DNA of 64,000 bases from Schistosoma haematobium. Its lineage: Eukaryota > Platyhelminthes > Trematoda > Strigeidida > Schistosomatidae. The stretch covers positions 28,255,809 through 28,319,808 of the forward strand of contig NC_067197.1 of assembly GCF_000699445.3 (NCBI RefSeq). Direction: 5' to 3'. This document shows positions 11,741 through 59,055 of this stretch, piece by piece; position 1 is the stretch's first letter; every line of letters starts with the position of its first letter. Below the pieces are notes generated by a model. The model saw only the letters and a program-made list of their open reading frames with translations. It searched no databases and had not been told where the DNA came from. A program made the position numbers and the translations under genes.

Positions 11741-11741
11741 T

Positions 11742-15500: not shown

Positions 15501-16345
15501 TTAAGATCTATTTCTTTTGTTAAATTCTAAGTAGCTTAAGTTTTTTTCTGTTTTTATTTTGTATAATGATTTCAAACAAAATTATTTGATGAACAAATGT
15601 TTGGTATCGCTCTATGTACAAAATATGATCGTAGACTAATCATATCTTCAATCTAAGTCACCTCTGACTGAAGCTTCTAGTCTATGACCATTTAACTACT
15701 ATGCAAAAAAGTATTGGTTATCAAATATTATTGGATAGATTATGGATGTACAGTTTATGCGTTCAGTTTAATAACAATGAGTAACTTATGCAGTTCAGCT
15801 ATGTTTCCTATATCTTTAGTAGCTATAAACTGACACATTATATATATTTCACCTGAGATGTTGAGTTTTTGCGTTGAACATAAAGCGTGCAATAAATTTA
15901 TGTTAATGTTTAATTTTAAGTCATTTTCTAAATAAACAATCGAATTTTTCCTCTTCATTATTGTTAACAGGTAACATAATATGTCTATCATGGATTACTT
16001 AGATTTAAGAAGTTGAACAATTTTAAAGCTTATTGCTTCATATTTTAATTAGTTAATCATTGTCAATGATAATTTTCAACATCTTTGATATGGTCATATG
16101 AATAATACAAGAAATAAGAGAATGGGTATGAATGTTTATTTAAATTGTATGTAGTTAAGTCACAATTTTTTCTTTTCATCAAAACTAATTCACAATTATA
16201 ACTCCATCAATCATTTAGTTCAGTTGTGAGTGAATATAAATAAGTTCTAAATTGTACTAACATTTTATGAGTGTAGACGATTTGTGAAGTTTATAGTATT
16301 TTCACTGTTGAAATCACAAATTGACCCGAGCCAAACTATTATTGA
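15500..16345. other. No gene seen
   Basis: AT-rich; short frames only. Confidence 0.45.
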
Positions 16346-16349
16346 TAAA

Positions 16350-16560
16350 CTGGAATCACTGAACGACCGTTTAGTCCGAGTATGAATTCTCAGAAGTGTG
16401 CGTCCATGAATGCGCACATGAGAGTCGAACCCAAAACCTTTGATATCGCAAGCAAACGATTAACCTCCAGACCATTAAACCAGGATCCAACGTTGCTATT
16501 ATATAACGCCTAAAAATACCGCAACCTCCACAAATTCCCTATATTAATACTAATCCTGTA
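16350..16560 (-). repeat. Family B SINE copy, tRNA-like head and broken hammerhead
   Basis: On the minus strand: GGTTTAATGGTCTGGAGG (A-box region), TTTTGGGTTCGACTC (B box), GTGCGCATTCATGGACGCAC, CTGAGAATTC and GACTAAACGGTCG. In the hammerhead part, GAAAC has become TAAAC and the CTGAGGA core is altered, so it is inactive. Confidence 0.65.
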
Positions 16561-16564
16561 CTCA

Positions 16565-18445
16565 TTGGTGACTATGTACAAGATATACTTTCCGGAGTAC
16601 TATTGAGAAGTTGTGACCACTGGTGTTCTTGTTCACTACAGCAGTAGTTACGTTAATGTTCTTCAAGGCTGTCTTTCTCTTGCTCATTGACTATTAACAT
16701 CTAAATGAATGAAATAATCTCTTTTGCTAAGCATATACTCAAATACATAGATGTATGGTAATTGTTAATTTCCTATTTGAGGACGTAGTATCCCAACAGT
16801 GGTTCATTTAAGTAATGATCTCTTTTATTTAATATTATTGTAATCAGAAATGTTATCCGAACACACGACGAATATGATGAATAAAATACTACAATTGTAG
16901 TAGTAATTTAAAAATAACACTATCAATATTGAAGGTTAATAGTCTTTGTTTTACAGATAGTAACTTTCATGAACATTATTTGTGTTTAATAATGTATAAA
17001 AATATTATTTATTGATGACATTGACATAAAAATATACTTATCTTACACTTGTTTAGCTAAACCCAACTACCAACTCAAATAAACTATGTAGATACCAATG
17101 TAGATTGTCACATAAATACTTGAATGATTAACTTACAGAAATGTAAAATATATATATAACTGATTTAAAACGCTTATAATAAATGAACCCTAACCTAAAG
17201 TGTTTTATTAATATAACTCACATGAATGGTCATTATTTGTTTATATTTAACTAAAATGAAAATATTCTTTCATTATACTATTTAGAACTGTCAAATAGTT
17301 TAAACATGTAATGAGTAAATACAGAAAATGTATGTATATAAAGAGTCATTTATATAATTTAAATGATGGAGAGCTATGGTAAAATGTAACTATGGTAATT
17401 CAAACTGTAAGTTAAATTGAAATGCTATTCATCTATAGTTGTTGTTGTTTAGTGAAAAGAAAAAAGAGAAAAGAAAAACAACTTGTGATATGGTGAAAAT
17501 CAAAAGAAAAAAAGAAGAAAAGAATTACTCATTGAAAGGAATAATAATGATAAATAAATGTTCAGTTGTATGTATCTATATAAATACTACTTATCACTTT
17601 GAGTTTGTATTTATGTTTATTACTGAATTAGAATAGTGATAGTAATTGAAATAAAGCGATGTAGTGAATTCTTATACATTTTATGTTACTTACTCATCAA
17701 TAGATTGAGGTGATTTTTTGTTTTTTTGAGATTGAGTTCACTTAGTGAAGCAAATGTTTTTAATCTAAGTGTATTGAACAAATGTGTATAAGATTTCGGA
17801 AAGGTTCGTATACAAGCATTTTTTCTCTCATAAATTACACCTGTTCAAACTAGTTTCGAAGATAATATAGTACTTTGTTAGAAATCGATATTTTTTGTGA
17901 GTAGTGTTTTGCTGAAGAAACAGTTATTTAGCTTTGACATGCTTAGTGATAAATAGACACCCAAGACTTAAAATATAACCCTACAATTATTTTGTATTCT
18001 ACAAATGACAACTATTTGATTCTTTCGTTCCTTAAGTATCCATTCATTTATTGATTACGAGATGTTCTTCTCCATATATCCTCTTTTTGTTTACTCTTTG
18101 TGTATCGAATGTGGTAGAACATTCGATGTTACAAATAGAAGAAATTTAATTTTTTTCAGCCCAGAAACTAAACTCTAGTGTAATATTTTGGAATTATCCA
18201 AACAATTCGGACATGTTCAGAATCATGTTTTACCTTATCAATATATTTGATGAAGTATACTCAATCCAACGATTGAAATAATAGTTTCTCTCAATGCGTA
18301 AATTTATTAAGAAATATTTGGTATTACAATAATTTGACACTGGATTCGTGCAAACTTTAATCTTTTGATATAGTAGAGCGTGCATGAGCAGTTCATGTAT
18401 AGCATTAATTTTAAACATTGAATGGACTTTGTTAAGATAAATGAT
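16565..18445. other. No gene seen
   Basis: AT-rich. A short A/G-rich stretch (17455-17525) gives a low-complexity frame that is not a credible gene. Confidence 0.45.
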
Positions 18446-19639: not shown

Positions 19640-19805
19640 AGTTGTAGATATCATTACCATGGTTTGATTTGATCATTTCGAATAAATTGAGCATTGGGTA
19701 GTTTGTTATAAATAAAAATAATATATTTACAATATCCCAATGAATAGAAAAATTAGATTTTATAACGTTTCGTGATTTAGTGTAAGTCACTTCTTCAGAG
19801 AACAT
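19640..19805 (-). repeat. Family C copy with hammerhead at 19755-19801
   Basis: Minus-strand order is hammerhead, then CAATGCTCAATTTATTCGAA and CAAACCATGGTAATGATA, the same order as the plus-strand copy at 6598. The hammerhead has CTGAAGA, stem II GTGA...TCAC, GAAACGTT. Compared with GTGG/TTAC or GTGGC/GTCAC in other copies, the stem II changes keep pairing. Confidence 0.6.
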
Positions 19806-19862
19806 TGTTTTACTTGAATCTTCTCATTGTTGTTTATGACTGTAATTGATCAGTTTTTTTAT

Positions 19863-20110
19863 TGGCATATGTACATACCGTGCGTATTGCCTTGATATTG
19901 TCCTAATTGGCAAGCATTATGAGAAAAGATGGATAGGAATTAGCAATGAAATTCAGAACGCGTGTCTCGTCTTATTTGAAAATTGTTAACTGGATGTACC
20001 TGCATCACAGATTTCTAGAGTAAACATCAACTCTGAAATGCAGGTACATCCGGCTGACGAGTCCAAAATAGGATTTCACTGCTAGGCACTATCAATCTTT
20101 GCTTATAGAG
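19863..20110. repeat. Sm-alpha-like inverted pair (family A)
   Basis: The left half (19863-20005) is a minus-strand unit: tail block, then cgcgtgtctcgtcttatttg, a decayed hammerhead in reverse. The right half (20011-20110) is a plus-strand unit with atgcaggtacatccggctga, cgagtccaaaatagg, then atttcactgctagg. The plus ribozyme lacks the GACGAAACGCGCGTCCTAG segment, a precise internal deletion. The arms ggatgtacctgcat (19992-20005) and atgcaggtacatcc (20038-20051) are perfect 14-bp complements. Confidence 0.7.
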
Positions 20111-24751: not shown

Positions 24752-25053
24752 ATACAAAATTCAATTTCAATAGTTGAGATCATGAGTCAATTGAAGCTAA
24801 ACGACCACTCAAAACCTGGAAGCACTGGACGGCCATTTCATCCTATAGTGGTATTCCTCAGCAATGTTCATCCACAATCCTGCCTCGTGGGATTCAAACT
24901 CAGGACCTATTGGTCTCGTAAGCAAACTCACTTCTGAGGAGTCTCGCAATAGGACGAAACAGCCGTCCAGTGCTTCTACGTTTTCCATATTGGTCTAACT
25001 TCCATTGATTCATGATCTCAACTATTGAAACCCCTTCTGATACAAAATTTAAT
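24752..25053. repeat. Family B inverted-pair insertion with target-site duplication
   Basis: The element body is 24766-25039. The left half is minus-strand family B, including a decayed hammerhead and tRNA-like B box; the right half is plus-strand family B starting just before a hammerhead. The ends are mutually inverted (ttcaatagttgagatcatga / tcatgatctcaactattgaa). It is flanked by atacaaaattcaat (24752-24765) and atacaaaatttaat (25040-25053), a 13/14 match, taken as the target-site duplication. This indicates one insertion event of the head-to-head structure rather than two insertions. Confidence 0.7.
24928..24973 (+). ncRNA. Hammerhead ribozyme (family B)
   Basis: CTGAGGA at 24934-24940, stem II GTCT...GGAC, GAAA at 24956-24959, stem III ACAGCCGT, and cleavage-site GTC ending at 24967. 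Stem I is CACTT/CAGTG with four of five pairs, so the core is intact. Confidence 0.65.
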
Positions 25054-25054
25054 C

Positions 25055-26785
25055 TTGATTAATATTACATGTTTTCTTTATTGTCTAAATAAGTTTTTGT
25101 TTTCAAACTTTTCAAATGTAAAAACTCATTTTATTAGATTCAAAGATCATGATTCTTGTTCTCATTGAATTCTTTTATATCACTCCATATATACGTATAA
25201 TTCTATCTTAAAGTATTAATTAAAATAAACCATATTTGCTGTTAAGATTAAAATCATTACATTAACATGGATGATTTGTTGTGAGTATTCCGTATTCTTC
25301 CACTAATTTTTTCCCTTAGTTTTATAATAGTGAATTTGATTCAGTTTTCAATTTGGTGATTTTTTTTCTTTCTGATATTCTCAACGTCAACAACAACATC
25401 ATCATCATCAGTACGCTTAATAGAATTTCATTAAGAAGTTTGTTTTTTGTTTTTTTTTGTTTTTTCTTCATTCTCTCTCTTTGGAACAGTTCATTGAAGT
25501 ATACTTGAAGTTTCAAATGATTGTTAACTTAGACATTAAAAAAGAATAAATAAATAAATTATAAAAGCACATAAGAGAAAAAGACAAAACAAGAAGAAAA
25601 AGAAAAAAGAGGAAGAAGAAGAAGAAGAAGACAAGACAGAGAAATAATTTAAAATGCATCTTATTTCTTTTTAGAAAAAAATGTGGAGTAAATTGAACTT
25701 TGCGTAATGATCAAATAAACGTTTATATTTAATTTCACCATAATCGAGTTAATGTATGTAGTGTAGATAAGTATTAACAGTAAGATAATGTGAATTATTC
25801 AAGTGGTCATTTATTCACAAAGCTGATTTTTTAAGAAGACATAACAATTTAAACGATATAGTAACAAAATATTGTATAAAATGGAATTTAAGAAGGTAGG
25901 AAAAAGACCTTTTTTGCAGATATTTTCTTGTAACTTTTAATGTCTATGAAGAATAGAAAAAGAAAATCAGTTTTTAACCAGTAAAACATAATAGCAAAGA
26001 TTAGTCTATTAAAAGTGGCGATAATAGACTAACATTAAGTTTAAATATACGTTTTTCTAGGTACAATGTAACTTCAAGAACTCGTGGACTATTGTAGCCA
26101 TGCTAAATAGTTTTCAATTATCCTAAAAATGCTCCACAGTGCACTTCTGTTTGTACTCAAAGTTTACATTTTTGAAAGTAACCAGCTGTATGCAAAGGAT
26201 AGGTTTCTTATGGCTAATGTGCATCCTGATCAGTTTTCTTTCCTATTGTAAAGTAACCTTCATATTAGAAATTTACACTCGATGAATCAGTCAGTAATTA
26301 TTTTTATTCAGTAGGTCAGTGGATTTCGTGCTGGAGACTGGAGGGATTTTTACCAGCTTGAAATCTCAATGTAAATATCGACGCTGGAAATGGAACTATA
26401 TACAGGTGATAAGTCTCAAATATAATAAACTCTGTTACATAATTTAGGTCAATCGTTCTCGTTACATATAGTACCACAGTCTTTCAAATATATCTCAAGA
26501 TGACATAAACTAAAAAGCTATTTTAAATAAAAAACCAATAAAAGGTGACTTTTGAATTTTCCATTAGCTACCTCAACTTCAAAACAAAATATATAAAATT
26601 CCTTGTGAATGGTTATATTTTTGTTAATTTAATTGAATATTTGCACTTTTTCTTCTTAATAATGGTTTCTACTTCATTTTGTTTCAAGTTACAAGTAACC
26701 GATAAACTTAATTAAACAAAATTACAAACAGAATATTTGTGGCTTGAAAATGCCTTTTCTGTAAACACATGCATTTTAATATCAG
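25055..26785. other. No gene seen; polypurine tract 25575-25645
   Basis: A pyrimidine-rich stretch with TTTTTTC and CATCATCATC runs (25365-25480) and an almost pure purine run with (GAA)n at about 25610-25630. Simple-sequence DNA, possibly able to form a triplex. No exon supported. Confidence 0.45.
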
Positions 26786-26787
26786 AA

Positions 26788-26920
26788 GGGGTTTTATAAA
26801 TATTATGGTAATTTTAATAGCTGAGATCATGAATAAATAGGACGAAACGACCAGTACTTCCAGGTTTTTCATAGTGTTCTAGCTTCAATTGACTCATGAT
26901 CTCAACTAATAAAATTACAT
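26788..26920 (+). repeat. Family B, internally deleted foldback copy
   Basis: It begins with tatcagaaggggttttataa, the usual terminal sequence, then gtaattttaatagctgagat, then abruptly aataggacgaaacgaccagt (second half of the hammerhead), the conserved ttccaggtttttcatagtg block and the inverted end gactcatgatctcaactaat. The tRNA-like head and CTGAGGA half are missing. Arms: about 26810-26835 and 26889-26916. Confidence 0.65.
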
Positions 26921-28509: not shown

Positions 28510-31290
28510 AAACCTTCAAGACTACATATTTGAGTTTAAAATTTCCAAAGGCATAAACACATTTCAAAACGCTACTTTCGAGTAAGGAAATGAAATAAGA
28601 TAGTGTATAACTAAATAGAAAAGATGGAAGCATGAATGAAAACAGTATTTATTTCAATAAACTAGTTATATTCGAATTTTTTGTTTTTGATAATGATAAC
28701 TACAGAAAACAATAATACATTTGAACACTTAAATGAAGTTAGAAGATGTTAACTTATTCACTTTGTAGTAAATCATATAGTAATTTACTATTAAAAAAAT
28801 ATATTATAGTCGGCGTTTTTTATCTATTCAAGTACACAATCTTCCGCTCATCACTGAATAAATCATACTCATTATATTAAGTGAAATATAACTGAATTTA
28901 ATGTTTAGGCGTTTTTTTTTCTTTTCATGAAGATGTTTATGTTTTCTCGTTATGAAATCCATTTTTACAGTGATTATTTCGTTATTTGACAGACGAAGAC
29001 GGTTCATCCACACTAGATTTATGTATATATTCTAAATAAATAAGGGAACGTAATAACAAGAACAAGAAGATGAAAAACAAACAAACAAACACTGTAATAG
29101 AACTTGAGGTAAATAAATTAGATCATAAGTATGTTGAAAATAACAGCCAATTACTATGATAAATTAAATAATAATATACTTCTATCCATCTAACTGTTTC
29201 TCATATAAAAACATATTTGAAGTGAATTCTTCGTTTCGATGATCATTTTTATTACCGCTTACAATTTATTAACTTCTCTTTCTATCTCTCTCTCTCGCCA
29301 CTTATATATTCTTCCAGTTCACTGACTGATTGGTTACTTGCAAAGCATTATACTGGTTATCAAGGGTTTTAATAAGTTTATATTCAAATACAAATTGAAC
29401 TAATGGTTTTGTACATAATTTCAAACACTTTGTAAACAGTGTTATTTTTTAGAAATTGTTATGAGTCAGAAAACTTAGAAGCATTGAACAGATATGTCAC
29501 TATTATCCAATATTTACTTAAAGTCCTCAAACACAGTAGAATTTGCAATAATATATCATCTATTAATTTACTCAGTATCCAAACATTTAGGCTTTTATGG
29601 GTAAGTAGACTTCGTAGTTCAACGGCAAGTCACCTACTGGACACGAGGATTGATGATGATCTAACTAACGAGGCGAAAGTGAATGATAAACAGTCAGTTT
29701 TATTTTATTAGGCTGCACGGAAAACACAGTAGTTAGAATGCTTGTATTTGACCATAATATTCATAGTGAGCCAGTATTTAAGCTTCAACTGCCTTAGCAA
29801 TTTAAATGACTTAAACATTTTGATTCTATCTTTTTCTTTTCATTTAGTTGAAATCATGATCTAGGTTCGTAAATGTGGATTACTGAGTAATCCTATGCTA
29901 TGACGAAGTAGTTGTTCAATGTTTTCTGGTTTTCAGTGGTGGTCTAGCTAAGATCAGTTCATGATATGAACTACTACCTAAAAAATTATTTTACAAATGC
30001 ATTTATACCTCCTAAATATTTTCTAGGCAGACAATTCAACCCATTAAATCATTTAACATAGGAATAACTGGTCATTTTTGTGCATATGAAATATGTAATG
30101 AATTTGCATCGTACAATAATTTCACTGATAAACTTGCTAAACATCCTATCATCCTATTGTTTAGGTCACATGAATAACATTACTATTGATATTATTTAGT
30201 AGACTTTCACCACATTAGTTTGAATGTTTGAACAGTGTAGTCCACATTGAACAATGATACTAAACGAAATGTCTGATTAAATGTTGACAAGATAAATTCT
30301 GTAAACTTGTTTTGTATTAGTTTGTGACTGTTGTTTTTCAAATTAAGTCAGTTAGTTCAATTCATACAAAATATGAACAAAACCACCTATCTCAAAAACA
30401 GTTATTTATCTTGAATACCATTAGAACATCAATCGCGGTTGCATAGTAAAAGTGATGACCAAGTTTCTTACAAATTGTATATTTACTTGAGCACAGTACT
30501 ATTGGATTTTAAAGTATATATATATATCTTTGTGATTGTGCAGCTTGGAAAATGAATTCATCGTAAAGAGAACTCTTCACTGAACTAACCTTTCTTATTT
30601 AATGTCTTCATGGATACATTCCGTATACGGATACAAGTTTAAGCAAATATCTAATCATCTGAATTTACTTTCCAGTACTTTGTCTTCTTTTATTTTTTCT
30701 TGTGCGAAATGATTTAACTATGGCAACTTTAAATTAAAACCGGAAAAGAAAATACCATTTTTCGTTGTTGTTGTTGTTGGTGGTGATAGCGGTGGTGTTA
30801 ATCAGTTTTTAAGTTCAATATAAAAATTATACAGTTCCACTTGAACTTGAATATAATTCTCATTTCAATGAATTACCTCTTGTCATTGACATTGTTTTCT
30901 AACTTCTTCTTTTAAAAATGAAAAAAATGATCATTTGACTGTAATTTGTGTTTGAAAAAAGAAGAGGAAAGAAAAAAAAGAAAACCCCCAGTTTATTTTT
31001 TTTTAAAAAAGAAGACAAATCTAAGATTAAATTGATACTTGAAAAAATTAAGAAGTCGATGAAAATGGTTCAATTTTAATGATCATTGTTTATTATTTAT
31101 GAATGGATATTGTGGAAAAAACAATGTCACTTATATAAATTTAAATAAGATTATTTACTTATATCATTTTATAGAATCAGTTGAGTGTACTATCATTATG
31201 ATAGAGCAAGTCAGATTAGTTTAATTGAAAATATGATTTAGAAAATTTAAAGGTATTTAAATCATTATAAGTCAAATATCTTCATACATA
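28510..31290. other. No gene seen
   Basis: AT-rich. A 90-codon frame at 29439-29711 lacks any recognisable domain. A (GTT)n/(GGT)n run lies at 30765-30797 and A/G-rich homopolymers at 30955-31015. Confidence 0.4.
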
Positions 31291-33000: not shown

Positions 33001-33007
33001 TAATTAG

Positions 33008-33465
33008 TATCAGAAAGGGTTTTGTGGAGATTGTAGTAATTTCAATAGTTGAGATCATGAGTCAATTGAAGCTAGAACACCATGGAAAACCTGAAAGCAC
33101 TGGATGACCGTTTTATCCTATTGTGGGACTCCTCAGCAGTATGCATCCACGACCCCGCCTCTCGGGATTCGAACCCAGGACCTGCCAGTCTCGCGCGCGA
33201 CCACTTAACCACTACATCACTGAGCTGGTTAGTATCCAACAGTGTTAATGTCTAACTTCAACTAATCCACAAAATTGAGCGACACATCCACCATCGTCAT
33301 CATTGAGTTACTATCACACAACTGACCCGGTTGAACTCCACTGGTCACTGCTTCTCACTAGAACTCCAGGTTATACATCTTGAAACCAGTCACTAGTGAG
33401 CATAAGTTGATTCGTATCAAAAGGGGGGTTTTGTGGAGATTGTAGTAATTTTAATAGTTGAGATC
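33008..33465 (-). mobile_element. Family B element with terminal direct repeats
   Basis: Read on the minus strand, it has a ~50-bp terminal sequence (ctcaactattaaaattacta, caatctccacaaaaccccc), a body, an A-box region (gtgatgtagtggttaag), an excellent B box (GGTTCGAATCC), a hammerhead and the terminal sequence again. The two terminal copies (33008-33056 and 33415-33465) are direct repeats with a period of about 407 bp, matching the 405-bp period of the copy at 58.4 kb. The hammerhead has CTGAGGA and GTCCC but GATAAAAC in place of GACGAAAC, so the essential GAAA is damaged. Possible target-site duplication: atctaattag (left) / atctgattac (right, partly within the repeat), 8/10. Confidence 0.75.
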
Positions 33466-33469
33466 TGAT

Positions 33470-33865
33470 TACCTAAAACTATACCATTTTAGAATCAAGA
33501 CATTTTATTATTCCCGTTATAAAAGGTTTTTTTTATTACGGTAACTGTTTCACTCAAGACGTTAATGCTGGATTATTTGGGAATTGTTTAACAATCAAGA
33601 TGATAGACGAATTTTTTTTAAATTTTTGTTTGATACTTATATGAATAACTTCTATTTATTTTTACCCTTAAAAGTATGTTGTTCTATGAAGTTGAAAAAC
33701 AACATTCCTTTCAAGTTTCTAATACTTCAAAATCACTTTTGGGGGGGGTATTTTTTTATTGTAATCTGCACACGAAAAAAAAGGTATTCTGAAGTTTGAT
33801 ATGATTTTGATTCTGATGGATTATTTGATCAAATAAATCTTAAATAACAAACAGAAGTAGAATAT
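33470..33865. other. No gene seen
   Basis: AT-rich with a G8 run near 33741. No exon supported. Confidence 0.4.
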
Positions 33866-36865: not shown

Positions 36866-36869
36866 TAAT

Positions 36870-37125
36870 ATCAGATAGGTTTTGTGGATATTATAGTAAT
36901 TTCAATGGTTAAGATCACGAGTCAGTTAACCAAATGACACGATGAATGTGAGATAATAGATGCAAATAAAATTTAGTGACCATTAGTTCATAATGTAGTT
37001 TCTCATGCTTGCTTAACTGATAAACACAATAGAACCGAACACAGTCCCACAATAGAACGAAACGGCCGTCCAGTGCTTCCAGATTTTCCATTATGGTCTA
37101 GCTTCAACTGACTCATGATCTTAAA
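36870..37125 (+). repeat. Family B foldback copy containing a second repeat
   Basis: It starts with tatcagataggttttgtgga, continues ggttaagatcacgagtcagt, switches at about 36938 to a ~95-bp block also found inverted at 38577-38690, then resumes family B at gtcccacaatagaacgaaac (second half of the hammerhead) and ends with the inverted terminal sequence gactcatgatcttaaacatt. Confidence 0.6.
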
Positions 37126-37129
37126 CATT

Positions 37130-38570
37130 GAAATTAAACTTTCATTGAGTTGAATAAAAGAAAATAGTTGTTTTGTTCAACAGAAATCAAAGAAAATATA
37201 TACTCAATGTACAATGTATCACAGTGAGTATGATCTACTTAATGTTCATTATTAAAATTTTCATTAAAAATTACAAATATGATTATAGTATAAAAATAAA
37301 TAAATCATTTGAAATGGTAGGCTGTTATTTATGATTAGGAAACTAGAAATTTAATCCAGTTATCTATGATTAAACACTGTAAACTGGTACAAGATTGTGT
37401 GTTGTACATCAGTTAGAATAACTGTATCGCAATTAATGAAAAATTGAATAGGAAAACAAAAATGAATAGTCGGATTAAGTTTAAAATTTTAGACATAAAG
37501 TGAAATAATGATTCAATAAATCTGTCACCATAACCTAATCTGAGTGAAATCAATTAAAAATATCGGAAAATGGAATATTATTATGGTACGAGCTGAAAGT
37601 TTGATAATGATTAATCACTTACAACAGGTATTCCAGTATGTTATGACTTGGTGGAATCGTACCATCTTTTAGTTTGTTTTCTCAGCCTACAACTATGTTT
37701 GACACTTTGGCATTTTATGACAGGGAATGAATATGTTTTTAAAACGACATGACTTAGACGTCATAAGAGGTCAGTATTATACCCAGAAATCCCGTATGTG
37801 GTTAAATGTACAGATAAATGTTGTTATCATATTTTAAGAGTCACAGCTTGCTATTTTTGGTAGACTTCAGACACTTCAAATGTAGAGTGTGATCATAAAC
37901 ATTCAAACAAATTTGTAAATAGTTAATTCTATTAGAAGTTTTCTTTTGTTTCACATTCTCAACTCTAAATGTAAACGCAAGTGGTACATAATGACATGTA
38001 TTTATCAATCTCTAACTGAATAATAGTGACTTCTAACATGTTCCATATAATTGAATAACTGGAAATAAAAATGTTATTTCAACAAGCCTATATTTAAAAG
38101 ACATATAAAACAATTACTTCCTCAAATAGGAATCATATAAACGAAAAATGTAGCTTATCTTTACTCTCAAAACTGTTTTTCAAAGTCTTTGTCGATTCGA
38201 TTCATCAATTATTTTTGTCTAACTGATATATTGTAATAAGTATTGAGCAGATTTAAAGTCTCGAAACACATTTTATCTGAAGTGATTATCGTTGTTTAAT
38301 TACTTACCTATTGTATTTTCGTGTTTCATTCATTGTAAGCCTTTGTTTGATGCATAAACTGTTGTTGTGTATTATACCCTTCTTAAAATATTATTAATTT
38401 ATTACAGACCTATTACTCAATCAGCTTTCATTTATGGCTTAGTTATGCTTAGATTGTAATTCCTTATTTATTTTGATGTGTAGTTAGTATTTGACACTAT
38501 ATTTTTGTATTAGTGATTCATAAATTAGTACTGTAGAATTATAAATTACTTGTTGACTGTGTTAGGTTTT
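37130..38570. other. No gene seen
   Basis: AT-rich; no supported feature. Confidence 0.4.
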
Positions 38571-38576
38571 ATTGTG

Positions 38577-39130
38577 TTTGTCAGTTAAGCGAGCGTGAGA
38601 AACTACATTCTGAACTAATGGTCACTAAGTTTTATTTGCATCTATTATCTCACATTCATCGTGTCATTGGTTAACTGGCGGTCATTGTTACTAGAAATAC
38701 AGCCTAGGTAAACTGATCATTACTCAGACTGCACTAACTATTCTCCTGTTTTAAAGTCCGATCACAAGTGATCCAAAAGTAGCAGACGATGAGAAGCCAT
38801 GACAAGTAGAGCTAATCGGTGTCGGGTAGAAACAGGTGTCTACCTCAGTACAATGGAAGATGGTCGCGCAAATTCGTGGATTGGTTGAGGTTAGACATTA
38901 ACACCATTGGATGCCGGCTCAGTGGTCCGGTAGGCTAAGCGTTTGCGCGCGAGACTGAAGGCCCTGGGTTCGAATCCCGCGAGCGGGATCGTGGATGCGC
39001 ACTGTCGAGTAGTCCCACAATAGGACGAAACGGCCGTTCAGTGCTCCCAGGTTTTCAATGGTGGTCTATCATCAATCGGTTCATGATCTCAATCAAACAA
39101 AACTCAACAATCTCCACAACCCCTAAACTG
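38577..39130 (+). mobile_element. Family B long copy with adjoining shared block
   Basis: 38577-38690 is the inverted counterpart of 36938-37035. Family B follows, with gatggtcgcgcaaattcgtg, the tRNA-like head (ccggctcagtggtccggtag, B box GGTTCGAATCC at about 38968-38978), gtggatgcgcactg, and a hammerhead whose first core half is TCGAGTA instead of CTGAGGA while the second half GAAACGGCCGTT is intact. The terminal block caatctccacaacccc closes the element. Confidence 0.7.
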
Positions 39131-39880
39131 ATAACAAAATATTTGTTTACTGATATGATGGAAAAAAGTCAATTTTCTATTGATTTACTCATTATTAGTT
39201 TTATTCAACATTACTTCTGTTGTGATTCAATATGATGGTTATTCAGTGTAGTATTGGGTTTGGTTTTCTTATGTGATGTTTTATTTTGTATAATATATGA
39301 TATTCTTGTATTCAATTGACATAAACTATGCTCAGTATGTGATTTGTTATGACTGAGTATTTTTTATATGTGATTTCATCCTAATTATTGATAAAAGTGT
39401 GCGTACAATCAATATATAAATGAGTGTATTTTCGACTAGGGTTGTGTCGACACTGTTTGGAATAACATTCCTTTCACTAGACTTCTGTCTTCTCATTGCG
39501 ACTTGGAAGGGTTTTAGCGTTGTAGTGCTCAATTCATACGCAGTATATCAAGAATATAAACATCTACATATAACATTTACTTTTTATAATCTTACTAACA
39601 CGCAAACTGCCAGTAAAAAATTAGAAAATTATCTAATACTCTGAAGGTAATGCGATCGCTGATGGACCAAAATATGACGATATTTATTTCTGATGGGAAT
39701 ACCGGTGCATACTATCAAGAAGTTGATATGTCTAATATTCTCTAACCTTTTATCATTTCTTTGTTCAAATAAATACAATCCGTGACGCTGTAATGAACAG
39801 AACATGGGTGGGGAAAAACGAATGTATCTAACACACAATTAGAGTTACTCGGTAAACTAAAAAAAACATATAGCGAATCG
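39130..39880. other. No gene seen
   Basis: Two antisense frames of 60-75 codons overlap at 39347-39644 but neither has a recognisable domain or splice context. Confidence 0.35.
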
Positions 39881-46951: not shown

Positions 46952-48987
46952 TTCCATGTAACTTACTTACTTATGCCTGTTACTCCTCGTGAAGGACAGT
47001 AGGCCGCTCACCAGCATTCTCCATCCAACCCTATCCTAGACAGTCCTTTCCAGCTCCTCTCAGTTGTTATTCATCGTTTTCATATCTGATTCTAATTCCC
47101 GACATAATGTGTTCTTTGGCCTTCCGCTTTTCCGCTTCCCTTCAGGATTCCTAATTAGGGCTTGCCTCGTGATGCAGTTTGATGATTTGTGTAATGTATG
47201 TCTTATTTGTTTCCATTGTCTTTTCCTAATTTCCCCTTCGGCTGGAAGCTGATTTGTTCTCTCACACAGATGGCTGTTGCTGATGGTATCCGACCAATGG
47301 ATGTTGAGTATCTTGCGTAGACATCTATTTATAAACACTTGTACCTTCTTGATGATGATTAAAGTAGTTCTCCATGTTTCAGCTCCGTACAGTAGAACTG
47401 CCTTGATGTTCGTATTGAAGATTCTCACTTTGATATTGGTTGAAAGTCGTTTTGAGTCCCATGCGGTCTTCAATTGTAGGAATGCGGCCCTTGCTTTACC
47501 AATCCTTGCCTTTACATCTACATCTGATCCTCCTTGTTCATCGATGATGCTGCCCAGGTATGTGAAGGATTCTACATCTTCCATAGTTTCGCCATCAAGA
47601 GTGATTTGATTGCTGTTCTCCGTGTTGTATTTGAGGATCTTGGTTTTCTCCTTGTGTATGTTGAGGTCTACTGATACAGAGACTGCTGCTACACTGATTG
47701 TCTTTATCTTCATTTGTTTGTGTGTATTAGATAGAAGGGCTAGGTGATCTGCGAAGTCCAAATCTTCTTATTGATTCTGAGCTGTCCATTGTATGCCATG
47801 TTTTCCCTCAGATGTCGAGGTCTTCATAATCCAATCGAACAGCAGGAGGAAGAGGAAGGGAGAGAGTAGAAAGCCTTGTCTGACTCCGGTCCTTACTTGG
47901 AATGCATCTGTCAGCTGTCCTCCATGCACGACTTGGCATTATAGTCCGTCGTGTGAGTTCCGGATAATATTGACAATCTTCTCAGGAACTCCGTAGTGTC
48001 GAAGACGTTTCCATAACGTCCTCCTATCCACACTGTCAAATGCCTTTTCATAATCAATGAAGTTGATGTACAGTGACGCGTTTCACTCAATTGATTGTTC
48101 GACGATGATCCGTATTGTTGCAATTTGGTCTGTGCACGACCGATCCTTGCGGAATCGAGCTTGTTGATCTCGAATTTGGGAGTCTACTGCGTCTTTCATC
48201 CGGTTCAGCAACACACTGTCGAAGGCTTTCCCTGGTACTGACAGTAATGTGATGCCTCTGTAGTTTTCACATTTGCTCACATCTCCTTTCTTTGGAATCT
48301 TGATGAGGTGTTTTTCTTTCTACTCCATCGGCACTTGTTCCTTCTACCAAATCTTCTGGAATAGAAGGTGAAGCATGTTTGTAGTTACTTCGTTGTCTGG
48401 CTTTAGAGCTATAGCTGGTATATTGTCAGGTCCTGCTGCTTTTCCGCTCTTGATTTGTCTGATGATCATCCTGAGTTCTTCGGTTGATGGAGTTACATCT
48501 ATAAGAAGGTCTGTGTGTGCTGCTTTAATGTCCGGTGAATTCATTGGAGCTAGCCTATTCATGAGTTTCTCGAAGTAATCTACCCATCTGTTCCGCTGTT
48601 GTTGAATTTCAGTGATTGTCCTGCCTTCTTTGTCCCTGACCGGTCTCTCTGTTTTACCATATCTCCCTGCTAGTTTCTTCGTTGTATCTTAAAGCTGTTT
48701 CATATTTCCTTTCCTTGCAGCTAGTTCTTCCACGTATTTCTGCTTGTCGGCTTTGATGCCCTTCTTCACTTGCTTGTTTACTTCTACGTAATCAGCCTGT
48801 GCTTGGACTTTCTCTGTTCGTGTTCGGCTGTTGTTAAGTGCTGCCTTCTTGTTCTTCCTTTCTTTGATCCTGTCCAGTGTTTCTATAGAGATCCATTCCT
48901 TATGATGATGCTTCTTGAGGCCCAGAACCTATTGACACGTTGAAGTTAATGATTCCTTGATACTTTTCCAGTTTCCTTCCATGTAAC
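46952..48987 (-). mobile_element. RTE (SR2-like) retrotransposon with 11-bp target duplication
   Basis: Element body 46963-48976, flanked by ttccatgtaac at 46952-46962 and 48977-48987. It is 5'-truncated: the apurinic endonuclease domain is missing and the sequence starts in the linker (KKHHHKEWISIETLDRIKER region at about 48860-48920). Then come KSGKAAGPDNIPA (48440 region), CENYRGITLLSV, RKDRSCTDQIA, the catalytic region, and a C-terminal domain with [16 protein letters not shown] and GRPKNTL. The 3' end is TAAG-rich (ataagtaagtaa), as for RTE elements. Stops and frame changes occur between 47761 and 48560. Confidence 0.88.
47060..47761 (-). pseudogene. RTE reverse transcriptase, C-terminal 233 codons
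   Basis: The longest open frame in the window. It opens [11 protein letters not shown], where active family members have FADD: the second catalytic aspartate is His, so the palm active site is dead. It continues with [88 protein letters not shown] and [15 protein letters not shown]. Remnant of the element at 46952-48987, not a host gene. Confidence 0.85.
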
Positions 48988-49784: not shown

Positions 49785-51790
49785 CTTACTTACATACGTA
49801 CGACAATTCCTCCTCGTCGAGGAGCATAGGCCGCCCACCAGCATTCTCCACACAACTATGCCCTAGACAATCCTTTACAGCTACTATTCATTCTTTTGAT
49901 GTCTCCTCCCGATTCCCGATGAAGTGTGTTCTTCGGCTTACCACTTTTTCGTTTCCCTTCAGGATTCCAAGTTACCGCTTGCCTAGTAATGTAGTTTGGT
50001 GATTTCCTCAATGTGTGTCCTATCCGCTTCCATTGTTTTTTCTAAATATCCTTGAGCTGCAAGCTGGTTTGTTCTATTGTTCATAGTATCCGTTCAAAAG
50101 ATATTCAGTATCTTAAATAGACAATTGCTCATAAATACTTGTACATTTTTCATGATGGTTGTAGTAGTTCTGCAAGTTTCAACTCAGTACATTAGAACTA
50201 ACTGTCTTCACGTTCGTTAAGAAGACTCTGAACTTGATGTTGTCTTGATGCTGACAGTTGTTTTAAGTTCCATATGTTCCTCAACTGTACAAGTACTGTC
50301 CTTTGTTCGCCAACAGTCGCCTTTGCAACTAAATCATTCAATTTCAACGGTGATGCTACCCAGACATGTGAAAGTTTACAACTCCTCCAGAGTATCTCCA
50401 TCAAGTGTAATTTGGTTTGTGTTCTTTGTGTTGTATTTGAAGATCTAGCATTTCCCTTGTGTATTTTGAAGCCTACTGATACAGAGACTGCTGCTACACT
50501 GTTTGTACCGACCTGTATTTGTTGATATGTATGGGATAGAAAGGTCAGGTCATCTGTGAAGTCTAAATCGTTTAGTGGCATCCAACTCGTCCATTCTATT
50601 CCGTGCTCCCACTCAGATGTACAGGTCTTCATAACCCAATCAATCACCAGGTGAAAGAGGAAGCGACACACTAAGCACACTTGTCTGACCCCGGTTCTCA
50701 CTTACAATACATTTGTCAGCTGTCCTCCACGCATGAATTCGCAGTGTAATCTGTTGTATGAATTCCGTATGATATTGACGATTTTCTCAGTTACATCATT
50801 GTATCGAGGAAGTTACCATATTGTTCTCCTATCCACACTGTCAAATGCTTTCTCACAATCAACGAAGTTGATGTACAGTGTTGAGTTCCACTCAACCGAT
50901 AATTCAACAATGATCCGTAATGTCGCAATTTGATCTGTGCATTACCGATCTCTACAAAATTAATCTTGTTTATCTCGAAGTTGGACTACTACTGTGTTTT
51001 TCATTCGGTCCAGCAACACTCTGTTGAAAACCGTTTCTGTTACTGACAGTAATGTGATGTCTCCGTAGTTATCACATTTGATCAGACCTCCTTTCTTTGG
51101 TATCTCGATCAGTTTCCTTTCTTTCCAATCTGTCGGCGACACTTGTTCTTCCTCTCAAATCTTCCTCAATAGAATGTGGACCATGTTTGCAGTGACCTCT
51201 GTGTCTGAAATCAGTTGTTCAACTGGCATATTGTCAGGTCGTGTTGCTTCCCCATTCTAGATTTGTGTGACTTGTGTGACGGCCATCCGTCGTTGGTGGA
51301 GTGACATCTATCGGAATGTCTGTAGGTGCTGCTTCGATAACTCGTGCATTCAATGGAAGTGGTCAATTCAAAACTTCCTCGAAGTGTTCTACCCATCTGT
51401 TCCACCGTCCTTGAATTTCATTGATTTTCTTACCTTCTTTCTGCTTGACCGTTCTCTCTAGTTTCCTTTATTTCCCTACTGGTTTCTTCGTTATTTCATA
51501 TAAATTTGTCATATTTCCTTCTCTTATAGCTTTTTACACTGTCATTACTAGCTCTTCCATATATTTCTGCTTGTAGGCTCTAATGCTCCTGCTCACTAGC
51601 TTGTTTACTTCTGTGTACTCAGCTTATGCCTTGACTTTCTCTGTTCTTGTTCGACTGTTGTTAACTGTTATCTTCTCGTTCTTCCTATCTTGAATCTTGT
51701 ATGAGGTTTCTATAGAGATATATTCGTTATGATGATGCTTTTTGCGGCCGAGAACCTTCTGACTCATTGAAGTTAACGCTTCGAAGGAAT
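49785..51790 (-). mobile_element. Second RTE (SR2-like) copy, older
   Basis: Minus strand, about 2.0 kb. The order matches the first copy: linker, a CDNYGDITLLSV equivalent (51100 region), then TGVRQVCLVCRFLFHLVIDW and LDFTDDLTFLSHT in the frame at 50198-50701 (catalytic FTDD, both Asp present), and the conserved 3' end with ttacttac at 49785. Many frameshifts and stops; more diverged than the 47 kb copy. Its 5' end lies at nearly the same element position as that copy, and a family G fragment follows directly. No clear target-site duplication was seen. Confidence 0.85.
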
Positions 51791-53520: not shown

Positions 53521-53526
53521 ATATAT

Positions 53527-53660
53527 ACGCACTGCTGAGGAGTCCCATACTAGGACGAAACGGCCGTCCAATGCTTCCAGGTTTTTCATGGTGGTCTAGC
53601 TTTAATTGACTCATGATTTCAATCAAAAACTTAACAATCTCCACAACACCTAAACTGAGA
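53527..53660 (+). repeat. Family B, ribozyme-plus-tail copy
   Basis: Starts abruptly at cgcactg, the first strand of hammerhead stem I, and runs to the terminal block caatctccacaacacctaaa. The tRNA-like head is missing. Confidence 0.7.
53529..53574 (+). ncRNA. Hammerhead ribozyme (family B), intact core
   Basis: GCACTG, CTGAGGA (53535-53541), stem II GTCC...GGAC, GAAA (53557-53560), stem III ACGGCCGT, cleavage-site GTC, stem I CAATGC. Five of six stem I pairs remain. Confidence 0.75.
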
Positions 53661-54490
53661 ATATTAGGAATAATTGCCCTATCGCCTATTAATAACAGCG
53701 AAATGAAATGAAATTAACCAGTTGTAAATAATGTCAATCAATACTAGGAGATGAAAAAAGGAAACAGTGTATCAATGATATGATTGAAAAGTAATATTAG
53801 ATACACAACTATTTTCCAAATGTACATAGTTACAAATCTCATTGGAAATTTATAAAACAAAAAAAATAGGTGAATACATCGAGAAATCTAAGATAATTGC
53901 ATTAAATACTTGATATTCTGTTGGTTAAATAAATGTTCACATACTATCAACATCAGTAGAGAGAATTCTCTGGAAACACTAACATTTCGTTTTAAAATTT
54001 AATGATTTAACAATTCTGTTTTCCAATGTTCGCTGGACCATTACACTATCGGAAAACATTAAGAAGATACAATGATTTTACGATTTAAACATGAAAATTT
54101 CCATTTAAACAATAAAGAATTAGTTATGAAAAATAAGCTTCAACAAACTATCAGTTCAGAATAAGTAATTTATTAAAATGATAGGAAATAAGTAGTGAAA
54201 TATACCTTATATAAATACAAAAATAAAAATGATAAAAATTCATCCTACTTAGAGTGTCTGTACTCTTCTAGTAAAGAACTTTCATTAACTTTGATGTTAC
54301 ATAGAATATATCTGTTACAAATTGATAAGCTTTCAGCAATTGATTTTTCCAAGTTTACTTGTCTATGCACCTTACTATTTAAATTTATCATGAAATTATA
54401 AATAACTCATTGTTTTATGGATACAGTAAGTGAAAAACATATAAAAATTTTACATGAAAATTATAAACTAAACAAAAATGCCTTTTTGTT
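53660..54490. other. No gene seen
   Basis: AT-rich. If the exon at 54837 is the first coding exon, upstream non-coding exons or the promoter may lie here, but none can be pinpointed. Confidence 0.4.
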
Positions 54491-54495
54491 ATTTT

Positions 54496-54610
54496 ACTTG
54501 TATCTTCCCATTGTTATTTAGGACTGCTGACGAGTCCAAAATAGGACGAAACGCGCGTACTAGATTCCACTGCTAGCCATTATCCATCTTTGCTTAAAAA
54601 TGCATTGTGC
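54496..54610 (+). repeat. Sm-alpha-like chimera (family A) upstream of Ig-domain exon
   Basis: 54496-54525 is the reverse complement of the Sm-alpha-like tail (acttgtatcttcccattgtt, atttaggact; compare 15456-15485). It joins directly to a plus-strand hammerhead and its downstream block (attccactgctagccattat, ccatctttgctta). It lies about 230 bp upstream of the ATG at 54837. Confidence 0.65.
54521..54570 (+). ncRNA. Sm-alpha-type hammerhead ribozyme, altered cleavage site
   Basis: CTGACGA (54527-54533), a perfect stem II GTCC...GGAC, GAAA (54548-54551), stem III ACGCGCGT. The cleavage triplet is GTA instead of GTC; GUA is permitted in the NUH rule. Stem I is poor because the 5' strand was replaced at the inverted junction. 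Confidence 0.6.
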
Positions 54611-54678: not shown

Positions 54679-54836
54679 CAAAACGAAATAATAAAAAAAA
54701 TAATTTCTTTAATCAAGATATCAGGCAAATAAACTTCGCAAATAATCTAATAAAATCATTTAAAATTTATGAATAACAAAGTATTACTTTGACTTCCCAG
54801 TAGAAAAAAATTATGATTAATTCCATCTCTTAGAAT

Positions 54837-55383
54837 ATGATGTACCTGGATCGTATTTCACCTTTGATAATGATAAGCTTGATTAACTGGAACCTAGTTT
54901 TATCTGAATTCATAGCATATGGATCTAATACTATGAATAAAAATACAGAAAAAGTTTTAAATTCTGTTATTTCTAAGAAGCAATCTGAATTACTAGAAAA
55001 TTTAAAATCTTCATCAGCATCAATACATACACAGGATACTTCAAATGAATATATGTTAAGTGATCATCCATTATCTGTAATTAACTTTAATAAGCATCAA
55101 AAATTTTCGTATCTAAATGATATGCAACCAGAAAATGTTGATAATTCAAAACATCCATTATTATCTGATCCATTGTTTGATCCTTCAATTCTTACAGATA
55201 CTGCTGCTCGTGTAATTCAATCCAACCGTTGTACAACAGAAGAACGCCAAAAACGAATACAATGTTTCGAGGTACTACCTGCGGAACAGTATGCTATACC
55301 ATTAGGACATACCGTGAATATGCAATGTGTTGTTTTAAATCAGCATGGAAAAGTTCAATGGCGTGCAAAAAAAATACTTCTCG
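54837..55383 (+). CDS. Kirre/Neph (nephrin-like) Ig-superfamily receptor, first coding exon
   Basis: The exon encodes 182 codons plus one base and ends at tctcg|gtatgt, a good phase-1 donor; the frame runs only four codons into the intron before a stop. Residues 1-25 are a likely signal peptide (hydrophobic stretch ISPLIMISLINWNLVL). Residues 30-140 form a Ser/Asn/Lys-rich linker with no domain. From about residue 143 comes the start of an Ig domain, FEVLPAEQYAIPLGHTVNMQ, with C164 as strand-B cysteine, N-Q-H-G-K-V-Q-W (W175 as strand-C tryptophan) and a final LLG. The sequence pattern F-x-x-x-P-A-x-Q...G...C-V-V-L-N-x-x-G-x-V-Q-W...LG is characteristic of the first Ig domain of Kirre/Neph/nephrin-type adhesion proteins, which mediate cell recognition at the plasma membrane. 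The long linker before the domain is unusual. An in-frame TAG precedes the ATG, so either this Met is the start or the exon is entered at the acceptor cttag|aat (54833/54834). Later Ig domains and the transmembrane segment were not found in the remaining 8.6 kb. Confidence 0.75.
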
Positions 55384-55620
55384 GTATGTTATACGTTTAA
55401 TTCTAATTAAAACAAGTATACATAATCATTTCTTCATTGATACAAAACACTATTTTTACAATTGTGTACTTATCAGTTTGCTAATTAAATATTTGTATCT
55501 TGAGACAGCGGTTTAAATGCATGCCGAGATTGTGAGTGATGTGAGTATCTAACCTTATAAAAATCCATATCTACTCTTTAATTTTGCGGCTAAAACGATT
55601 AGAAATGTATAAACTGTTAA
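55384..55620. other. Start of first intron
   Basis: Follows the phase-1 donor at 55384. AT-rich, no recognisable second exon. The frames crossing the donor are read-through of intron sequence. Confidence 0.5.
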
Positions 55621-55627: not shown

Positions 55628-55925
55628 GATGGAGTACAACCGTGTCTGGTGTAGGGCAGCTACTCACTGAAGACAATGGGAGACGGTCGAGCAATATCAT
55701 GCATTGATTGGACTTAGACATTCACACTATTGAACACCGGCCCAGTTGTCTAGATGTCAAGTGTTTGCGCGCAAGACCGAAGATCCCGGTTTTGAACACC
55801 ACCTGTAGGATCATGGATGCGCAATGCTGAGTCTCATGCTAGGACGAAATGGCCATTCAGTGCTTCCAGGTTTCCAATGGTGGTCTAACATTGATTCATT
55901 CGTGATCTCAATTTAAAACAATTTC
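55628..55925 (+). repeat. Family B copy with core-deleted hammerhead
   Basis: Contains the body (tactcactgaagacaatggg), the tRNA-like head (cggcccagttgtctagatgt; B-box region ggttttgaacacc, mutated), gtggatgcgc-like catggatgcgcaatg, then CTGAGTCTC, where GGA of the CTGAGGA core is deleted, followed by GACGAAATGGCC. It lies about 250 bp inside the first intron. Confidence 0.65.
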
Positions 55926-55929
55926 GTCA

Positions 55930-57805
55930 AATTCTTAAACACACCAGTAGTATTGTATTAAAATATTACAATAACATTATTACATACTATGATACTATAA
56001 TAGGTGTTAAGTTCTCAATAAATGTAATCAACCGTAAAGCAGTAATGAACTAGTATTACAAAACAATTATTATTACTGATTCCAAAATGGTTCATGATTT
56101 TTTGAATAGTGAACTTGAAGAAAGAGTACTTAGTATATTAAATAATACTTAATCTATTTTTTGAGGTGTATATTCCTTGCATATTGAGTTCTCTCAACTC
56201 AATATAAATTATATATACGTTTATATGCATACATAATATAATTAGTTACAAATTCAGGTGATTGATTTTGATTAATTTGTGAGTTCTAATCTGGATTAAT
56301 CTGTTATAATGTTTTTTTGTTGTGGGAATTTCAAATTATCCTCAAAAACTTGGTTAATACTTTCCTTATTGCTTAATAATCAATTGATTTTTCTTGTTCT
56401 TTAATGTATGAATGAAGTTACTAAGTAAATTATATTCAGAAAAATTAAATATTCAAGAAATATGTTAAGTAGTTAATGTAATGATCTGAAATGTATATCC
56501 AAAAAGGAATAATGTAAAAAAAATGGTTGTTAATTTACATTATATGATGATCGTTACATAGAAACCCTGAGAAACTATTGAAAAAAAACTAAGGGTTGCA
56601 AAACAATTATTTTGTTCCATTTCAGATGTTTGCAATATTATCCACTCCTAATAATTGATTTAAGTTTAAATATCCACTGATTCTTAAAATTTTGTCGGCC
56701 CTGATTAAAATAAAGCCAGTTCTGCTTTAGTATAAAAGAGGTTTATATTTATGCTTAGACAATTATCTATTATATATATATATAATTGTATCTAGTAGTT
56801 GCTTTTCAAGAATAGAAACAATTGAGTATCCCCTGAAAACGAAATGCTGACTGGTACCGGTTGAGAAATTGACGAAACGTAGGGTTTATTCAATAGATAT
56901 TTAATCCTAATTTACAACGTCGCTGGAGCGCAAAATCGACACTCCACAGACTATGAAACGAAACCGTTTAGAAAACCACCCTTTTTCATTGATACACTGA
57001 TATTTTTTAGTAAAGCTTATTTGCATTATTTGGCATAAAACATTACGATTAAAAACCTTTCCCATGTTTGTATAACCTAAGACAAACATTAACCACTTCT
57101 ACAGAGAACAATGCTTTCGAACACCTAAGTGTTCATAATTTAAAAAGTCGTCTTTTTAATACCAACTCTATATGATAACCAATTACTTTATAAACTTTGA
57201 ATACTCAGTACATGTATGTAAATATACATGTTTACCCGAAACATAGAAATAATACAGCTTGATTATTATGGATATTAAAACCTTACGACCGAATAAAATA
57301 TATAGGAATCCTGTGACTGTATCCATATATATTTTCACATAGATATCATCTTATCAACTAATTTAATATGAGTAATTATTCCTTAGAAGAAAAATGATAA
57401 ATTAACAAGAGTCCATACAATGCCTGACCATGTATATTTAATTCAGTTTAAAAATACAATAAATTTAAGTTTAGAATTAAAATTGTTCATGGATGTCTCA
57501 ATGGTTCAAGAAAAGAAAATTTAACTTCCTTATATTTGATTTTTCTGTTTTGATCCATCTAATCAATAATTGATTTCAACTTTCGATAATGATATTAGAA
57601 GACGAAGATTATCAGAACTATGTGATATATTAGCGCAATACATTTCGAACAATCTGGTCACACATATACTTGTTAAGAGCATTTATATATAAAAATAAAA
57701 GGTCAACTAGACAGGAAACGGGGTAAGAGGAGATAAGGATAATGATAAGATTAATAATAATAATAATGTGAACACAATTTGAAACCTAATCACTCTGGAT
57801 AATAA
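55930..57805. other. No exon seen; intron-like AT-rich DNA
   Basis: No second Ig exon recognised. A short (TA)n lies at 56772-56784. 57754-57768 is (AAT)n next to the Penelope-like fragment. Confidence 0.4.
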
Positions 57806-58360: not shown

Positions 58361-58689
58361 TTATAATAGAAATTATCAGAATGTGTTTTGTGGAGATTTT
58401 TAGAAATTTTCACAGATTGAACTCATTGGTCTAGCTTCAACTGACTCATGAGTTCAATCTGTGAAAATTTCTAAAAATCTCCACAAAACACATTCTGATA
58501 ATAATAATCACCTGCTCACTAGTGACTGACTTCAGGAGACACTTCTGGAGTTCTAGTGAGAAGTCGTTACCAGTGGAGTTCAACCAGGTCTGTTGTGAGA
58601 TAGGAACTCACTGAAGACAATGGTGTACGGTAGCGCAACTTCGTGGATTGGTTGAAGTTAGACATTAACATCGTTGGATGCCGGCTCAG

Positions 58690-58744
58690 TGGTCTAATGG
58701 TTAGGTGCTCGCGCGCGAAGCCAGTAGGTCCTGGGTTCGAGCCC
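58690..58744 (+). promoter_or_regulatory. Internal pol III promoter (A and B boxes)
   Basis: TGGTCTAATGG fits TRGYNNARNNG without mismatch and GGTTCGAGCCC fits GGTTCGANNCC. The 34-base gap is normal for tRNA genes, but the flanks do not fold into a tRNA cloverleaf that I could confirm. Confidence 0.75.
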
Positions 58745-58768
58745 CGGGTGGTGCGGGGTCGTGGATGC

Positions 58769-58814
58769 GCACTGCTGAGGAGTCCCATACTAGGACGAAA
58801 CGGCCGTCCAGTGC
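58769..58814 (+). ncRNA. Hammerhead ribozyme (family B), best copy
   Basis: Stem I GCACTG/CAGTGC (58769-58774 with 58809-58814) is a perfect 6-bp helix. Core CTGAGGA 58775-58781, stem II GTCC/GGAC (58782-58785 with 58793-58796), GAAA 58797-58800, stem III ACG-GC-CGT with a minimal loop, and cleavage-site GTC ending at 58808. All conserved core residues are present. The RNA would be cleaved after 58808, releasing units of about 405 nt from tandem transcripts. Confidence 0.85.
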
Positions 58815-58916
58815 TTCCAGGTTTTCAACGGTGGTCTAGCTTCAACTGACTCATGAGTTCAATCTGTGAAAATTTATAATAGAAATATTTAATACTAAAT
58901 ATAGTTTTTGTTATAT

Positions 58917-59055
58917 CTCAATGAGTAGAAAAATTGTATTTCTGACGTTTCGTGACTTAATATAGACCACTTTTTCAGAGTAAGTAAATAACCCAATGCT
59001 CAATTTATTTAAAACTATGAAGTCCAACCATAGCATTGATACTTACGTAATAGAA
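58917..59055. repeat. Family C, inverted-junction copy
   Basis: The hammerhead block is on the minus strand (core CTGAAAA, so G8 is lost), and is joined to the second block (acccaatgctcaatttattt, aaaactatgaagtccaacc) in plus orientation, whereas the copies at 6.6 and 19.7 kb have both blocks on one strand. It begins 31 bp after the family B target duplication. Confidence 0.6.

Follow-up and report, generated by a model that had tools for sequence, protein, structure and literature searches.

The 64-kb window analyzed here (64,000 nucleotides of Schistosoma haematobium contig NC_067197.1, with a G+C content of 30%) contains a short non-coding insert in which a predicted hammerhead ribozyme lies beside tRNA-like sequence. 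This locus raises the question of which kind of mobile element the insert represents and by which machinery it was placed. We propose, with a probability of roughly 0.6, that it is a non-autonomous, non-coding hammerhead retrozyme or Sm-alpha-like retroelement that was inserted in trans by a Penelope-like protein. Its back-to-back, Penelope-like arrangement hints at the machinery that spreads such elements in animals.

Architecture of the insert

The insert (copy A) spans positions 58374-58873 of the window (500 bp) and is located between perfect 13-bp duplications, TTATAATAGAAAT, at 58361-58373 on the left and at 58874-58886 on the right. In a comparison with 6000 random flank pairs, in which 4 nt of slack were allowed on each side, this 13/13 match had a p-value of 0.0003. 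In addition to the duplication, the original prediction had described a perfect 53-bp inverted repeat and a 405-bp partial tandem, and both were recovered: the former pairs 58374-58426 with 58448-58500 across a spacer of 21 bases, and the latter pairs 58427-58474 with 58832-58879 at 98% identity over 48 nt. With one further ambiguous base pair per side, the perfect run of the inverted repeat reaches 55 bp, and the inverted arm and the adjoining direct repeat are hence identical over 53-55 bp. The whole window, all loci taken together, contained 109 inverted-repeat seeds (20 bp, within 100 bp), versus 0 in five mononucleotide shuffles.

Read from left to right, the insert starts with an inverted arm, which is an antisense copy of the terminal repeat (58374-58426, minus strand) and the outer part of which (58374-58405) corresponds to the tail. 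The first direct terminal repeat, which is pLTR-like, and its tail follow on the plus strand (58427-58500), with 58427-58447 representing the spacer of the inverted repeat. The tail itself comprises 32 nt (58469-58500, plus strand), has A or C in 22/32 bases and ends in CTGATA. It is followed by 58501-58681 (plus strand), a stretch of family sequence 5' of the tRNA-like part that is shared with copy B and partly with copies C and D of the same family. The second direct terminal repeat (58832-58873, plus strand) ends before the tail, which is missing at the right end of the insert. Copy A therefore has direct and inverted terminal repeats inside a short duplication, as in Penelope-type insertions. 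Since it contains no stop-free frame of at least 90 codons, the ORF for reverse transcriptase and GIY-YIG endonuclease of an autonomous Penelope-like element is absent. Several microRNA-precursor models of Rfam matched the perfect hairpin at 58372-58502, some of them on both strands and all below their gathering scores; these sub-threshold matches reflect the hairpin, and a microRNA precursor at the inverted repeat was rejected.

Ribozyme, tRNA-like part and RNA template

The hammerhead of the original prediction was borne out by the Rfam models, as RF00163 matched 58769-58814 (plus strand) with 50.3 bits (gathering score 34, E 4.4e-10) and with no non-standard pairs marked. A type I hammerhead within a short non-coding repeat, as is characteristic of retrozymes, is predicted here, with cleavage between 58808 and 58809 and a possible distal stem I formed by 58762-58765 with 58816-58819. 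Both CUGANGA and GAAA were retained in 4 of the 8 hammerhead arms inspected (those of A and E and both arms of F). As had been proposed, the hammerhead of copy A differs from those of the copies at 34101 and 54523 in stem I and stem III. The canonical hammerhead core was assigned -8.6 kcal/mol versus -13.8 kcal/mol for the minimum-energy fold, and the canonical fold is thus not the minimum. Because RNA energy models omit tertiary contacts, the alternative fold weakens, and does not refute, hammerhead activity. The exact hammerhead pattern gave 0 matches in collections of viral and prokaryotic contigs, as expected for an animal repeat.

The tRNA-like part is less well defined than originally thought. 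Boxes that had been called exact are near-consensus in copy A, where the best matches were 10/12 to the A-box consensus used (58682-58693, plus strand) and 10/11 for the B box (58734-58744, plus strand); the B box is 11/11 in copies B and C. The description of the element as tRNA-headed was not confirmed: ARAGORN found 0 tRNAs in the window and the Rfam tRNA model matched none of copies A, B and C at E<=1. Moreover, family sequence of about 180 nt (58501-58681) lies 5' of the tRNA-like part, which therefore does not head the unit. A TTTT at 58822-58825 (plus strand), which has no second occurrence on the sense strand of the unit and may act as a pol III stop, lies between the hammerhead and the terminal repeat, and such a TTTT between hammerhead and tail was present in 11 of the 14 copies or arms examined. 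Of the proposal that pol III makes the mobile RNA, the near-consensus sequences resembling A and B boxes remain, but the pol III step itself is doubtful because the TTTT precedes the terminal repeat and because family sequence extends about 180 nt 5' of the A box. A pol III transcript from these boxes would tend to stop at the TTTT, without the tail and the 5' part, and read-through or another promoter is more likely to account for the mobile RNA than the internal pol III boxes alone.

Regarding the template, the direct part of copy A comprises 447 nt from a 405-nt unit and crosses the predicted cleavage site, which is unbroken; the template of A was therefore a multimer or a circle. The cleavage site was crossed by all 12 of the 12 arms that could be placed on the unit, a count that is biased because most arms were recognized through the hammerhead region, and none of the 12 begins at this site. 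Folding of the unit as a 405-nt circle placed 71% of it in pairs, compared with a mean of 65% for 100 dinucleotide shuffles (z=-4.4). The unit RNA is thus highly self-paired in the manner of retrozymes, with pairing above 70% having been reported for putative metazoan retrozyme RNAs (PMC4918200).

Relatives in the window and their unequal ends

A search of this one 64-kb window with the doubled unit identified 13 family insertions, or 14 if the two pieces of L (73-185 and 1236-1322) are counted separately; these are designated A to M. Copy B (33003-33486, minus strand) is a second partial tandem that ends with the tail and begins at unit position 1, the same 5' start as in A, and neither of these two partial tandems contains two complete hammerheads. 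Copies C (38790-39140, tail at the end) and D (55630-55935, without tail) are direct only and on the plus strand. Copy E (53525-53666, plus strand) is tailed and 5'-truncated at the hammerhead, the core motifs of which are intact; several other copies are also 5'-truncated, and copy M is located at 29864-29949. The piece of L at 1236-1322 is tail only and has its 5' end within about 8 nt of the predicted cleavage site, and it could derive from a cleaved linear RNA.

Antisense/sense pairs were found for 5 of the 13-14 insertions (A, F, G, I and J). In F (24763-25042), an antisense arm without tail (24763-24918) faces a direct arm (24929-25042) that has the CTGATA end, lacks the middle of the tail and scores as tailless. 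In G (36869-37131), the antisense arm is tailed (36869-36930) and the direct arm is not (37043-37131). The two arms of G are separated by a repeat (36923-37046) that is 94% identical, in antisense, to 38555-38677. Copy I (26780-26918) likewise pairs a tailed antisense arm with a tailless direct arm (26838-26918). The pair in J (16281-16628) is a counterexample, as its second arm ends at neither tail site and its outer end lies inside the 5' region.

To compare the ends, 18 arms were aligned and the tail of each was scored leave-one-out against nine arms judged by eye to be tailed. These nine tailed arms (A first direct, A inverted, B first, B second, C, E, G inverted, I inverted and L 1236-1322) had tail gains of +18.0 to +36.2, whereas eight tailless arms (A right end, D, F inverted, F direct, G direct, H, I direct and K) had gains of -3.7 to -17.2; the gain of J was weak (+12.6). 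Inverted and direct arms differed within single insertions, with tail scores of +26.1 versus -17.2 in G, +18.0 versus -8.7 in I and +34.7 versus -13.8 in A, the score of A not being independent because its two tail arms are near-identical. The direct arm of F scored -5.0, and F is ambiguous with regard to tail asymmetry. In A, G and I, the A+C-rich tail of about 32 nt is thus carried by the antisense arm, and the direct arm stops near the start of the tail. A tail of 30-40 nt on one arm only, as in Penelope-like elements, is seen in these three copies and is not seen in J. Tailless ends were spread over alignment columns 43-65 (43-50 for D, H and K versus 52-65 for A, F, G and I), and this end is therefore not sharp, and less so than the tail end. 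By the same flank-pair comparison as for A, duplications were detected at the ends of G (10/11, p=0.0035) and of F (13/14, p=0.0005, with the best match including bases of the element end), while the ends of I gave no significant duplication against the 6000 random flank pairs (p 0.09). The recurrence of this anatomy in A, G and I speaks for the Penelope-type insertion that had been suggested for copy A; J and F are exceptions to it.

Candidate machinery and relation to described elements

A sequence of events that would produce copy A can be proposed as follows. First, read-through transcription of tandem copies, and not the internal pol III boxes alone, would yield RNAs that exceed one 405-nt unit. 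The hammerhead would then cut after 58808 to release 405-nt units, some of which may be ligated into circles; cleavage and circularization have been reported for related elements. A helper protein would make staggered cuts in AT-rich DNA and use both strands to prime cDNA synthesis, which would begin at either of two internal RNA sites about 32 nt apart, namely at the A+C-rich tail end or near the tail start; two such internal start sites are suggested because the arm ends fall into two classes. Finally, the two cDNAs would meet head to head, which would leave an inverted arm, a direct copy, one tailed and one tailless arm, and the 13-bp duplication. What the DNA of the window itself documents is this end product, found again in some of the relatives, and a template that exceeded one unit and in which the cleavage site was unbroken.

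Several of these steps have counterparts in published work. A Penelope-like element (PLE) protein has been reported to cut and extend both target strands in vitro, at AT-rich DNA, and to start inside its RNA at two sites, with the interval between them, in an AC-rich stem loop, being the genomic tail (PMC11167929). Rotifer Penelope inserts have been described with two direct pLTRs, an adjacent inverted pLTR and a 9-bp TSD, and with a 31-bp tail that is optional at one of the inverted pLTRs (PMC3846280). The family studied here resembles Penelope-like elements (rotifer Penelope, Anolis Poseidon and Perere-10, the last being a schistosome PLE named in PMC4465651) in its partial tandem and in the inverted terminal repeat at one end. 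An optional tail of about 30-40 nt, short duplications, an AT-rich target and a hammerhead are further features that appear to be shared with them. Unlike these elements, it has no ORF, carries a full type I hammerhead and not the minimal form, and includes tRNA-like sequence.

Two other explanations of the inverted arm are both unlikely. In one, a LINE mobilized the insert as a tRNA-derived, Sm-alpha-like SINE, and the inverted arm is a 5' inversion through twin priming. Sm-alpha has been classed as SINE-like (PMC2770079), 13-bp duplications suit LINEs as well, and the window contains LINE-like repeats at 46961-48955 and 49788-51782 (minus strand, diverged at 74%). We take these to be RTE elements; their one Pfam match is DUF6451, and a related fragment lies at 11740-12615. 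However, the 3' ends of the two LINE-like copies, near 46961 and 49788, consist of GTAAGTAAG-type repeats and do not resemble the CTGATA tail, and what the inverted arm duplicates in A, G and I is the 3' tail. In twin priming as commonly described, the inverted segment comes from another part of the RNA, further upstream, and a single 3' end is left, such that an antisense copy of the 3' tail is not expected. The other explanation, to which we give no greater weight, is a snap-back in which the 53-bp arm of A was self-primed on the adjoining tail during or after cDNA synthesis, an origin that would be uninformative with regard to a Penelope protein. The 100% identity of the arm to the adjacent repeat and the 21-nt loop are as it predicts, and self-priming has been discussed for PLEs themselves (PMC3846280). 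On the other hand, the inverted arm of F (unit 290-448) contains 5' sequence that its direct arm, which begins at unit 344, lacks, and snap-back alone leaves the unequal tails of A, G and I unexplained. A foldback or MITE-like DNA element with terminal inverted repeats is highly improbable, as the ends of insert A, even though mutually inverted over part of their length (32 nt, 91%) and flanked by a duplication, are not flush (one is longer by 32 nt), and 8 of 13 relatives have no visible inverted arm, many being 5'-truncated with similar 3' ends.

Hammerhead SINEs of schistosomes (PMC2770079) and animal retrozymes for which PLE help is suspected (PMC7229834) have already been published. With metazoan non-LTR retrozymes (PMC7229834, PMC7761336), the family shares the type I hammerhead, a unit length of about 170-400 nt, the lack of an ORF and a highly self-paired unit (71% in this family), and it may also share their occurrence as tandem or partial tandem copies. 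Platyhelminths are listed among retrozyme carriers, and PLEs have been proposed as helpers (PMC7229834, PMC7761336), the grounds being the hammerheads and the tandem arrangement common to PLEs and retrozymes, and their co-existence (PMC7229834). The metazoan retrozymes were reviewed as having neither promoters nor a conserved motif that points to a helper (PMC7761336); by comparison, the present family has pol III-like boxes, a two-site tail and inverted arms. In our limited literature search, the unequal-tail, head-to-head anatomy was not found to have been used as evidence for a retrozyme helper. If two-site Penelope priming is correct, head-to-head copies with unequal tails would be a readable signature of the long-sought helper of retrozymes. 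If the anatomy holds genome-wide, it would provide a sequence-only test of the Penelope-helper guess in any animal genome, and the question of a circular-RNA template could be addressed through copies longer than one unit.

The family itself probably corresponds to one of the published hammerhead elements or to a near relative of them, a judgment made from their described features. With Sm-alpha/Sj-alpha elements (PMC2770079, PMC4918200, PMC6155905), it shares a hammerhead beside tRNA-like sequence, many copies and non-autonomy, and small-RNA clusters of S. haematobium include hammerheads that overlap SINE/tRNA annotation (PMC5993326). The 405-nt unit is longer than that of W36.2 (333-335 bp) and is close to those of the satellite-like hammerhead repeats W25.2, W26.2 and W27.2 of S. 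mansoni (415-428, 399-402 and 403 bp, respectively), which are reported to have an extremely short stem III and 25,162-55,303 autosomal pieces each (PMC8490949); on unit length, the one property compared, identity of the family with W25.2, W26.2 or W27.2 is likely. The same report describes direct repeats and a presumed TSD for one W25.2 case, and cleavage in vitro for 3 of 5 hammerhead candidates from W25.2 and W36.2 (PMC8490949).

Other hammerhead repeats in the window also have unequal ends. The copies at 34101, 54489-54602 (hammerhead at 54523) and 19804-20106 were labelled Sm-alpha type in the original prediction, and we take them to be so; relative to these presumed Sm-alpha copies, the family differs in stem I, stem III, terminal repeat and tail. 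Two of them (54489-54602 and 19804-20106) are head-to-head pairs with an antisense arm that reaches the far end (GATACAAGTAAAATAA, GATTCAAGTAAAACAA) and a direct arm that stops early (TTTGCTTA...). In the pair at 19804-20106, the antisense arm alone has a long extension, and the hammerhead is incomplete in the direct arm. Duplications at these Sm-alpha-type inserts were not significant against 6000 random flank pairs (p 0.07 and 0.17), and the tail comparison between the family and these copies gave no signal (p 0.12-0.72). It is possible, as a tentative generalization, that the insertion of schistosome retrozymes, including this family and Sm-alpha, is carried out by a Penelope protein, with both DNA strands primed from two fixed internal sites of a circular RNA.

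In a third hammerhead repeat, stem III lacks a loop, as has been described for Penelope-like elements (PMC6155905, PMC7761336). Four copies retain an intact CUGANGA (at 1155, 5024, 6605 and 19768), a degenerate copy is located at 58950-58980, and GAAACGTC is exact in 3 of the 5 copies. As Rfam matched neither of the two copies tested, its minimal-hammerhead label is based on motifs. The copies at 4965-5153 and 58897-59046 are head-to-head with unequal ends. The family tail showed weak similarity to this repeat (p 0.03-0.10 per repeat copy and 0.008-0.33 per family arm) in a comparison that took in 7 of the 9 tail arms, the repeat itself being a putative PLE; a shared tail would be the strongest link, and the signal is weak. 

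No autonomous PLE was recognized by eye among the stop-free frames of at least 90 codons in the window, and five frames scanned against Pfam included no Penelope protein, with DUF6451 being the one match. The frame at 54834-55397 had six matches in a protein search that omits proteins of very different length; the four that were named are from flukes, with the best being from Trichobilharzia regenti (63% over 99%). The minimal-hammerhead repeat at 58897-59046 starts 11 bp to the right of the duplication of insert A, the copy at 1120-1187 is located 49 bp from the family tail piece at 1236-1322, and the copy at 19640-19800 abuts the Sm-alpha-type copy at 19804.
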